Translations under genes and position numbers: made by a program
Notes under the pieces: model-generated
Database searches by the model: none
What the model was told of the DNA's origin: nothing
Seen by the model: the letters and a program-made list of their open reading frames with translations, nothing else
Source: Loxodes magnus
Lineage: Eukaryota; Ciliophora; Karyorelictea; Loxodida; Loxodidae
Assembly (NCBI GenBank): GCA_946699065.1
Contig: CAMPDV010000886.1
Span: 1-64,000, forward strand
DNA: 64,000 bases
Direction: 5' to 3'
Shown: piece by piece, positions 1 through 64,000 of the stretch
How the letters are laid out: the number at the start of each line of letters is the position of its first letter
How positions within the stretch are numbered: position 1 is the stretch's first letter

Positions 1-1681
1 ATGAGTGGTCACACTAGTTCTGTATCATCTGTGGCTATATCCAGTGATTCAGAGTTCATCGTATCGGGAAGTTTAGATAAAACGGTGAGACTATGGGACG
101 TCAAAACAGGTACCTGTAAGACCATGAGTGGTCACACACATTATGTATCATCTGTGGCTATATCCAGTGATTCAGAGTTCATCGTATCGGGAAGTCATGA
201 TTAGACGATGAGACTATGGGACGTCAAAACAGGTACCTGTAAGACCATGAGTGGTCACACACATTATGTATCATGTGGCTATATCCAGTGATTCAGAGTT
301 CATCGTATCGGGAAGTTTAGATAAAACGGTGAGACTATGGGACGTCAAAACAGGTACCTGTAAGACCATGAGTGGTCACACACATTATGTATCATCTGTG
401 GCTATATCCAGTGATTCAGAGTTCATCGTATCGGGAAGTCATGATTAGACGGTGAGACTATGGGACGTCAAAACAGGTACCTGTAAGACCATGAGTGGTC
501 ACACACATTATGTATCATCTGTGGCTATATCCAGTGATTCAGAGTTCATCGTATCGGGAAGTTTAGATAAAACGGTGAGACTATGGGACGTCAAAACAGG
601 TACCTGTAAGACCATGAGTGGTCACACACATTATGTATCATCTGTGGCTATATCCAGTGATTCAGAGTTCATCGTATCGGGAAGTCATGATTAGACGATG
701 AGACTATGGGACGTCAAAACAGGTACCTGTAAGACCATGAGTGGTCACAATAGTTCTGTATCATCTGTGGCTATATCCAGTGATTCAGAGTTCATCGTAT
801 CGGGAAGTCATGATTAGACGGTGAGACTATGGGACGTCAAAACAGGTACCTGTAAGACCATGAGTGGTCACAATAGTTCTGTATCATCTGTGGCTATATC
901 CAGTTATTCAGAGTTCATCGTATCGGGAAGTAGAGATAAAACGGTGAGACTATGGGACGTCAAAACAGGTACCTGTAAGACCATGAGTGGTCACAATAGT
1001 TCTGTATCATCTGTGGCTATATCCAGTGATTCAGAGTTCATCGTATCGGGAAGTTTAGATAAAACGGTGAGACTATGGGACGTCAAAACAGGTACCTGTA
1101 AGACCATGAGTGGTCACAATAGTTCTGTATCATCTGTGGCTATATCCAGTTATTCAGAGTTCATCGTATCGGGAAGTAGAGATAAGACGGTGAGACTATG
1201 GGACGTCAAAACAGGTACCTGTAAGACCATGAGTGGTCACACACATTATGTATCATCTGTGTCTATATCCAGTGATTCAGAGTTCATCGTATCGGGAAGT
1301 CATGATTATACGGTGAGACTATGGGACGTCAAAACAGGTACCTGTAAGACCATGAGTGGTCACACACATTATGTATCATCTGTGGCTATATCCAGTGATT
1401 CAGAGTTCATCGTATCGGGAAGTCATGATTAGACGATGAGACTATGGGACGTCAAAACAGGTACCTGTAAGACCATGAGTGGTCACAATAGTTCTGTATC
1501 ATCTGTGGCTATATCCAGTGATTCAGAGTTCATCGTATCGGGAAGTCATGATTAGACGGTGAGACTATGGGACGTCAAAACAGGTACCTGTAAGACCATG
1601 AGTGGTCACAATAGTTCTGTATCATCTGTGGCTATATCCAGTGATTCAGAGTTCATCGTATCGGGAAGTCATGATTAGACG

Positions 1682-2662
1682 GTGAGACTATGGGACGTCA
1701 AAACAGGTACCTGTAAGACCATGAGTGGTCACACTAGTTCTGTATCATCTGTGGCTATATCCAGTGATTCAGAGTTCATCGTATCGGGAAGTGGAGATAA
1801 GACGGTGAGACTATGGGACGTCAAGACAGGTACCTGTAAGACCATGAGTGGTCATAATAGTTCTGTATCATCTGTGGCTATATCCAGTGATTCAGAGTTC
1901 ATCGTATCGGGAAGTTTAGATAAAACGATGAGACTATATGACGTCAAAACAGGTACCTGTAAGACCATGAGTGGTCACACTAGTTCTGTATCATCTGTGG
2001 CTATATCCAGTGATTCAGAGTTCATCGTATCGGGAAGTCATGATAAGACGGTGAGACTATATGACGTCAAAACAGGTACCTGTAAGACCATGAGTGGTCA
2101 CACTAGTTCTGTATCATCTGTGGCTATATCCAGTGATTCAGAGTTCATCGTATCGGGAAGTGGAGATAAAACGGTGAGACTATGGGACGTCAAAACAGGT
2201 ACCTGTAAGACCATGAGTGGTCACACACATTATGTATCATCTGTGGCTATATGCAGTTATTCAGAGTTCATCGTATCGGGAAGTAGAAATTATACGGTGA
2301 GACTATGGGACGTCAAAACAGGTACCTGTAAGACCATGAGTGGTCACACTAGTTCTGTATCATCTGTGGCTATATCCAGTGATTCAGAGTTCATCGTATC
2401 GGGAAGTGGAGATAAAACGGTGAGACTATGGGACGTCAAAACAGGTACCTGTAAGACCATGAGTGGTCACACACATTATGTATCATCTGTGGCTATATCC
2501 AGTGATTCAGAGTTCATCGTATCGGGAAGTCATGATTATACGGTGAGACTATGGGACGTCAAAACAGGTACCTGTAAGACCATGAGTGGTCACAATAGTT
2601 CTGTATCATCTGTGGCTATATCCAGTGATTCAGAGTTCATCGTATCGGGAAGTCATGATTAG
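1682..2662 (+). CDS. Open WD40 block, 8 repeats (326 codons)
   Basis: Open segment between two codon-27 TAGs; it opens at a GTG within a unit, and the first ATG is 39 bases in. Alleles in order: TSS-GDK, NSS-LDK with TMRLYD, TSS-HDK with RLYD, TSS-GDK, THY-CSY-RNY, TSS-GDK, THY-HDY, NSS-HD-stop. Seven complete blades would be enough for one propeller, but no signal, partner domain or start context precedes it. It could be a translated fragment or only a chance gap between stops. No function beyond a WD40 scaffold can be inferred. Confidence 0.35.
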   Translation: [326 protein letters not shown]

Positions 2663-2665
2663 ACG

Positions 2666-62749: not shown

Positions 62750-62795
62750 ACGGTGAGACTATGGGACGTCAAAACAGGTACCTGTAAGACCATGA

Positions 62796-63983
62796 GTGGT
62801 CACACACATTATGTATCATGTGGCTATATCCAGTGATTCAGAGTTCATCGTATCGGGAAGTGGAGATAAGACGGTGAGACTATGGGACGTCAAAACAGGT
62901 ACCTGTAAGACCATGAGTGGTCACACACATTATGTATCATCTGTGGCTATATCCAGTGATTCAGAGTTCATCGTATCGGGAAGTCATGATAAGACGGTGA
63001 GACTATATGACGTCAAAACAGGTACCTGTAAGACCATGAGTGGTCACACTAGTTGTGTATTATCTGTGGCTATATCCAGTTATTCAGAGTTCATCGTATC
63101 GGGAAGTCATGATAAGACGGTGAGACTATATGACGTCAAAACAGGTACCTGTAAGACCATGAGTGGTCACACTAGTTCTGTATCATCTGTGGCTATATCC
63201 AGTGATTCAGAGTTCATCGTATCGGGAAGTGGAGATAAAACGGTGAGACTATGGGACGTCAAAACAGGTACCTGTAAGACCATGAGTGGTCACACACATT
63301 ATGTATTATCTGTGGATATATCCAGTGATTCAGAGTTCATCGTATCGGGAAGTCATGATAAGACGGTGAGACTATATGACGTCAAAACAGGTACCTGTAA
63401 GACCATGAGTGGTCACACTAGTTCTGTATCATCTGTGGCTATATCCAGTGATTCAGAGTTCATCGTATCGGGAAGTGGAGATAAAACGGTGAGACTATGG
63501 GACGTCAAAACAGGTACCTGTAAGACCATGAGTGGTCACAATAGTTCTGTATCATCTGTGGCTATATCCAGTGATTCAGAGTTCATCGTATCGGGAAGTG
63601 GAGATAAGACGGTGAGACTATGGGACGTCAAGACAGGTACCTGTAAGACCATGAGTGGTCACACACATTATGTATCATCTGTGGCTATATGCAGTTATTC
63701 AGAGTTCATCGTATCGGGAAGTGGAGATAAGACGGTGAGACTATATGACGTCAAGACAGGTACCTGTAAGACCATGAGTGGTCACAATAGTTCTGTATCA
63801 TCTGTGGCTATATCCAGTGATTCAGAGTTCATCGTATCGGGAAGTTATGATAAGACGGTGAGACTATGGGACGTCAAAACAGGTACCTGTAAGACCATGA
63901 GTGGTCACACTAGTTGTGTATCATCTGTGGCTATATCCATGATTCAGAGTTCATCGTATCGGGAAGTTATGATTATACGGTGA
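62796..63983 (+). CDS. Open WD40 block near the right edge, 10 repeats (395 codons)
   Basis: Opens in the frame following the last 2-bp deletion (62819) and loses the WD40 frame at the single 1-bp deletion near 63939. Alleles: GDK, THY-HDK with RLYD, TSC-SSY-HDK with VLSVA and RLYD, TSS-GDK, THY-HDK with VLSVD and RLYD, TSS-GDK, NSS-GDK, THY-CSY-GDK with RLYD, NSS-YDK, then TSC. No codon-27 TAG occurs in the last 1.2 kb. YDK and, beyond the deletion, YDY are found only here. Confidence 0.38.
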   Translation: [395 protein letters not shown]

Positions 63984-64000
63984 GACTATGGGACGTCAAA
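63840..64000 (+). repeat. Right-edge units with private changes and a partial last unit
   Basis: The last two units carry YDK (63844-63852) and YDY (about 63967-63975), and the second has the only 1-bp deletion of the window (ccatgatt for ccagtgatt, near 63939). The final unit is cut by the window end after codon 35. Greater divergence is common at the edges of satellite arrays, but the true array end is not visible. Confidence 0.75.

Follow-up and report, generated by a model that had tools for sequence, protein, structure and literature searches.

A 64-kb tandem array of one WD40 blade unit: a probable gene-derived satellite

The het-d, het-e and het-r genes of Podospora anserina (the NWD genes) carry WD40 blades of 42 residues that are more than 80% identical within a gene (accessible parts of PMC1805685, PMC2873952 and PMC12222747), and their reactive alleles with high internal conservation (HIC) hold 10-12 repeats (PMC12222747, in part). 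The accessible text of a survey of highly repetitive propellers records 2 to 47 blades, the largest number being that of a hypothetical NACHT ATPase of Penicillium camemberti; it places such propellers in all major lineages and also notes that they decay through stops and frameshifts (PMC9218822). Here we analyse a stretch of 64,000 bp (Loxodes magnus contig CAMPDV010000886.1, positions 1 to 64,000, forward strand), called the window below, which is a head-to-tail array of a 123-bp unit corresponding to one WD40 blade. Our favoured reading, to which we give a probability of roughly 0.68, is that the window lies within a gene-derived satellite that originated from an HIC WD40 sensor domain.

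As far as those sources describe them, the Podospora genes resemble the array in a framework homogenised by exchange, in diversity at the d-a loop and the b-c turn, and in stops in some copies. The loop codons concerned are 7, 9, 25 and 27 in Podospora and mainly 5-7 and 25-27 in the array, which differs further in having at least 520 blades, no other domain in the window and a third of its units broken. With the surveyed propellers, including WRAP (2ymu), it shares recent amplification of one blade, near-identical blades and forms disrupted by stops or frameshifts; it differs from their range of blade numbers in holding 521 units. An earlier note on this DNA, made from the letters alone, knew of no described array of this kind and size. 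As to size, the survey maximum is far smaller (PMC9218822, in part), but HIC propellers, the concerted evolution of repetitive WD40 propellers and their decay had already been published (PMC9218822 and PMC1805685, as far as their accessible text goes). Our literature searches, in which subscription journals were thinly covered, recognised no array of this kind or size among the matches listed. Satellite DNA can arise from tandem repeats of other elements, for example retrotransposon-derived ones, and forms long head-to-tail arrays. The present array differs from such element-derived satellites in that its source is a subunit of a protein domain, whose surface pattern is still readable.

One WD40 unit throughout the window

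Tandem Repeats Finder returned a single row for the window (1-64000, period 123, 520.9 copies, 93% matches, 0% indels). Splitting at a conserved anchor gave 521 units. Of these, 482 were 123 bp long, 34 were 121 bp and four were 124 bp, and the final unit, truncated by the window edge, measured 104 bp. Because no complete unit deviates from 123 bp by more than 2 bp, other sequence hidden in the window is excluded. The 482 full-length units, on which all per-codon counts below are based (the 38 odd-length units and the truncated last one being left out), share a mean pairwise nucleotide identity of 94.2%. GC content is uniform along the window (0.428-0.436), and all 50 open reading frames (ORFs) of at least 150 aa lie on the + strand.

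The majority unit, taken per base, translates to 41 residues, that is, one WD40 blade. In three ORFs, 573, 438 and 411 aa long, PF00400 matched 14, 10 and 10 stretches, respectively, and it matched each of eight seven-unit stretches, chosen from the 14 intact runs of at least seven units, at E <= 1.2e-69; all 11 stretches scanned were thus positive. The characteristic residues are kept almost throughout: H4 and D33 in 482/482 units, V8 in 479/482 and W32 in 444/482. The earlier note had described a single-unit array filling the 64 kb, with no other sequence and with every unit recognisable as WD40, and these results bear it out. Matches to NCBIfam with one seven-unit stretch all fell far under the cut-off. 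HIC propellers are defined by consecutive blades of more than 60% median identity (PMC9218822), and across the 14 seven-unit protein stretches of the window the mean column identity is 94%.

AlphaFold2, given the 14 window stretches as its alignment, modelled seven intact units as a closed seven-bladed propeller (Table 1). The top match in the PDB by Foldseek was 7bie (nvWrap-T, a symmetric seven-bladed WRAP propeller), and the top match by sequence was 2ymu, the WRAP of Nostoc punctiforme, a highly repetitive WD40 protein. In the model the majority strand pattern covers residues 8-13, 19-24, 29-33, and 39 to residue 1 of the next unit, which places codons 5-7 in the d-a loop and codons 25-27 in the b-c turn. 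Intact stretches of the array would, by this model, still fold as propellers. A model of the 573-aa ORF built from its sequence alone was of low quality (pLDDT 59) and was not used.

Surface variation and unit turnover

Variation between units has an older layer of common alleles, concentrated at few positions, and a recent layer of rare changes. In the full-length units 78 of 123 sites are invariant and 45 are variable, and codons 5-7 together with 25-27 account for 67% of the amino-acid entropy, the top result among 666 ways of placing two codon triplets. In a control of 95 prokaryotic relative units from nine loci (95 of 119 aligned domains, those with at most eight gaps), the same codons hold 24%. 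Codons 2, 18, 19, 34, 35 and 38, which reach 2.3-3.3 bits in the prokaryotic relatives, stay at or below 0.05 bits here. The unusual point is this concentration, 67% versus 24%, with the other loose codons frozen. A frozen framework under a varied top face is the HIC pattern, as seen in NLR/STAND receptors with HIC WD40 domains. The six surface codons occur in 43 combinations.

Strong positive selection acts, in the Podospora repeats, on codons 7, 9, 25 and 27, which belong to the d-a loop and the b-c turn of the top face; codons 8 and 26 are conserved there (PMC1805685, in part). When the Podospora numbering was shifted along the unit, zero was the best of 41 offsets (p = 0.0004), codons 7, 9, 25 and 27 ranking 3, 11, 1 and 2 in variability. 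The numberings agree, because in addition to this offset the conserved codons 8 and 26 match V8 and D26 (396/482) of the array. Of the seven variable positions given in the accessible text of PMC12222747, shifted by five on our own reading, six vary here and the seventh, codon 34, is invariant.

Recent changes carry little sign of selection on a protein. Rare changes, in at most five copies, comprised 22 nonsynonymous, seven synonymous and two stop changes when counted per base (266, 88 and 15 being possible), and 28, four and four when counted per codon. Framework changes of any frequency numbered 28 nonsynonymous, five synonymous and two stop, where 8.9 synonymous changes were expected if transitions count twice (p = 0.17). 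Within the power of 31-35 change types, neither the rare nor the framework changes show protein-level constraint, and both look neutral. The WD40 core itself is loosened: D26 is replaced by N in 79/482 units and W32 by Y in 37/482, at positions where the entropy of the relatives is 0.23 and 0.08 bits. The change at codon 32, from TGG to TAT, is a two-base block in all 37 units; one TGT intermediate and no TAG were seen.

The order of unit types reveals that blocks of many units have been duplicated. Local alignment of unit order gave duplicated-block scores of up to 77, compared with a maximum of 20 in eight shuffles. In the 15-unit duplication (copies A and B in Table 1), 12 of the 15 units are identical and the other three differ solely at the polymorphic codons 5-7, 14 and 32. 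The larger and older pair (units 81-163 and 164-225), which has been rearranged, scored 68.2 with 39 identical units on a path of 86 (maximum of eight shuffles, 20.3). Long head-to-tail arrays, block duplication and homogenisation are what characterise satellite DNA, and the window is a long uninterrupted array of this kind in which blocks have been duplicated and units homogenised.

Alleles within the unit are also shuffled. All four gametes were seen in 131 of 171 pairs of common sites, and association between codons 5-7 and 25-27 is near nil (r2 <= 0.07; codons 14 and 26 reach 0.39). We compared 12 pairs of full-length units that have identical neighbours and lie above the weight limit: 10 differ solely by alleles present in more than five copies, and five differ at several bases at once while seven differ at a single base, which recurrent point mutation could explain. 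Conversion tracts within the framework would be invisible, and therefore we make no claim that conversion is targeted to surface codons. Mutants of Podospora have directly shown the kinds of event supposed here: deletions, duplications, an 88-bp conversion-like patch and an unequal crossover (PMC2873952, in part).

Neighbouring units are slightly more different than random pairs (7.39 vs 7.18 bases, p = 0.06), and pairs of identical neighbours are no more common than by chance (11 vs 14.4). Because neighbours are not more alike than random pairs, single-unit duplication seems rare. Allele frequencies drift from one part of the array to another: the GGA-GAT form of codons 25-26 is concentrated in the right half (88/129), the 124-bp allele is found there alone, and Y32 and AAG35 are highest in the last tenth of the window (13/38 and 13/47). 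This drift suggests local amplification.

Three other accounts of the variation were rejected. A higher-order repeat of fixed period does not fit: lags 8, 49, 36 and 12 rise above the 95% level of the shuffles (z of 6.0, 4.8, 4.1 and 4.0 against 3.75), but even at lag 8 units are identical in 7.0% of cases, with 3.0% expected by chance, and the longest identical run is eight units. Duplicated blocks are separated by many different distances. Diversity-generating retroelements make adenine-restricted changes in their targets, using a template repeat and a reverse transcriptase; here the variant sites are not confined to A but extend to C, G and T, and the window holds nothing but the array. As for repeat-induced point mutation, C-to-T or G-to-A accounts for 12 of the 31 rare change types by our own count, made without a formal test, and so does not dominate.

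Loss of a common reading frame

In-frame stops or frameshifts break 165 of the 520 complete units. Length accounts for 38 of these, 34 sharing one 2-bp deletion and four sharing a +1 allele, and in-frame stops for the other 127. A TAG at codon 27 is present in 119/482 full-length units, that is, in 119 of the 127 that bear a stop; the remaining stops are TGA (seven) and TAA (one). The start sites of units fall in frames 0, 1 and 2 in 151, 186 and 184 cases, with 38 phase switches along the window. One continuous coding region, the other mark of an HIC gene, is therefore lacking, and the array is not one gene. The longest ORF is 573 codons from stop to stop and the longest intact run is 13 units. 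When the order of these units was shuffled 5000 times, the observed intact runs proved no longer than those of the shuffled arrays (maximum, p = 0.71; runs of at least seven, p = 0.16).

The earlier note had proposed a coding minisatellite grown far beyond the size of a protein, behaving as satellite DNA while most units keep codon phase. Growth past protein size and satellite-like turnover are supported. Phase is kept within most units (482 of 520 are 123 bp long), but no common frame runs through them. Recent common ancestry of the units, rather than a maintained frame, best accounts for the unit-by-unit phase, because the framework shows no deficit of amino-acid changes and intact runs exceed those of shuffled units in neither length nor number.

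The stops at codons 25 and 27 sit where sense alleles could recombine within a codon (TAT x AAG giving TAG; TTA x GGA giving TGA). Judged from the allele list, stops could thus be a by-product of allele shuffling. Intact runs of exactly seven units, the standard blade number of a WD40 propeller, numbered eight where 3.6 were expected (p = 0.025, uncorrected for run length). TAG at lag 8 is not significant (44 vs 34, z 2.3, 95% level 3.2). A seven-blade gene unit was rejected, and the excess is treated as chance. Apart from the first (Table 1), the 124-bp units start at 50374, 55414 and 56891, so that this allele is confined to the right third of the window.

Table 1. Coordinates of features in the window (units counted from 0)
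Feature	Position	Strand	Basis
Head-to-tail array of the 123-bp (41-codon) WD40 unit, extending past both window ends	1..64000	+	Tandem Repeats Finder and unit split
First in-frame TAG at unit codon 27	202..204	+	Read in sequence
First of 34 121-bp units, which share a frameshifting 2-bp deletion around codons 9-10	247..367	+	Unit split
Units 81-163, unit-order partner of units 164-225 (older, rearranged block duplication)	9954..20146	+	Local alignment
Units 164-225, partner of units 81-163	20147..27760	+	Local alignment
First of four 124-bp units, second frameshift allele	43487..43610	+	Unit split
15-unit block, units 382-396, copy A of segmental duplication	46932..48774	+	Unit order; coordinates from unit starts
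Longest ORF, 573 aa, 14 PF00400 stretches	48241..49962	+	Stop-to-stop ORF listing and PF00400
Seven intact units, modelled as closed seven-bladed propeller	48283..49143	+	AlphaFold2 pLDDT 93.1, pTM 0.90; Foldseek TM 0.93 to 7bie
15-unit block, units 418-432, copy B of segmental duplication	51359..53201	+	Unit order
Units 488-494, exact seven-unit block, recurring eight units on at 60949-61807	59967..60825	+	Unit order

Origin of the array and competing readings

The array would have begun as a gene with an HIC WD40 domain, its blades already having a homogenised framework and diversified top-face codons. From the pattern of the codons, we infer that this founder was a recognition gene and that the domain was most likely the sensor part of an NLR/STAND-type protein. 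Multi-unit tandem duplications, by unequal exchange or break-induced copying, would then have carried it to at least 520 units, while short-tract conversion between units may have reshuffled the surface alleles already present and maintained a uniform framework. Because selection on the protein would no longer act over most of the array, the amber codon at position 27 could be copied to a quarter of the units and the 2-bp deletion to a fifteenth, and the array probably yields no protein product.

Several observations weigh against this account. The agreement with Podospora is partial: codon 9 ranks 11th, codon 34 is invariant, and codons 26, 16, 12, 14 and 32 vary here yet are absent from the Podospora list. 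Codons 25, 27, 6, 9, 7 and 5 also rank near the top for variability in ordinary prokaryotic WD40 units, and in the 95 control units the Podospora codons 7, 9, 25 and 27 rank 7, 6, 1 and 2. Since variability at these codons is general among WD40 units, a match to Podospora is not by itself proof of a receptor. The window holds no NACHT, NB-ARC or effector domain, and no locus sharing the array unit, and hence no parent gene, was identified in the collections searched. The recent changes are few (31 rare types) and compatible with weak purifying selection, and the count of singleton units that one crossover between two others would produce, 46 of 69, has no shuffled control. Finally, the case for decay would be weaker with TAG read as a sense codon: 44 of 520 units would then be broken, and the breaks would be spaced more evenly than expected by chance (variance p = 0.007).

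The searches for relatives covered several collections. Viral contigs, searched by protein and by a 27-base pattern, gave no match to the unit, nor did plasmids searched by DNA with the first 4000 bases of the window, nor phages searched by protein. Plasmids searched by protein gave 197 records, and in each of the 20 matches listed the best place was less than 60% identical. Genome contigs gave 38 pattern matches; nine loci, the controls used above, encode a relative at 41-60% identity and are read as ordinary prokaryotic WD40 genes. In a Dependentiae genome bin, a WD40 ORF has four near-complete blades with a mean identity of 79%, the highest of 11 prokaryotic ORFs compared.

Could the array serve the host as an archive? 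The host may keep a library of WD40 cassettes, in which hundreds of silent or semi-coding blades, held uniform by conversion, donate their surface codons by gene conversion to the sensor propellers of receptors expressed elsewhere. The 43 surface combinations on a frozen framework and the allele swaps within duplicated blocks are what such a library would look like, and exchange between loci, pseudogenes included, has been proposed for the Podospora NWD genes (PMC1805685, in part). We nevertheless consider this unlikely: stops and frameshifts have spread through the array, though a selected donor library should keep them rare, and a founder gene accounts for the same diversity.

A variant genetic code, in which TAG and perhaps TAA specify an amino acid, would turn the array into long WD40 genes or exons split by frameshifted units. 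The placing of nearly all stops as TAG at one hypervariable codon points this way, as does the more even spacing of breaks once TAG is sense, which leaves a longest run of 41 units and 31 runs of at least seven where 24.1 are expected (p = 0.005). Against this, 38 of 520 units remain frameshifted and TGA and TAA stops are present as well; block duplication may itself produce even spacing, and a single inherited event is the simplest source of TAG in 119 units. On balance this code-based explanation is improbable.

It is more doubtful still that the true array is much shorter and that the assembly laid reads of a modest repeat end to end. Near-identical tandem WD40 repeats are hard to assemble, as the accessible text of PMC12222747 and PMC9218822 notes. 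However, no exact repeat in the 64 kb is longer than 1165 bp, a point against a looped assembly although no substitute for reads, and the unit order forms no repeated loop, the best lag having 7% identical units. Long reads could place such an array, and base errors must be few because so many sites are invariant across 482 units. A living giant gene encoding thousands of residues of WD40 blades, which would suit a unit length that is a multiple of three in 482/520 units and intact runs that fold well in the model, is barely credible with 165/520 units broken, all three frames in use and a longest ORF of 573 aa; as one continuous protein read with the standard code it is refuted.

If the reading as a gene-derived satellite is right, the array stands at the far end of a known cycle in which one WD40 blade is amplified and then decays. 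It has about eleven times more blades than the survey maximum in the accessible text of PMC9218822, with no protein domain around them in 64 kb. For annotation, its open runs call for caution, since they give strong "WD40 protein" matches that may mislead. Some 520 copies in one molecule would record conversion, block duplication and the loss of coding constraint on a recognition domain, and they suggest a protein subdomain as a possible source of satellite DNA.

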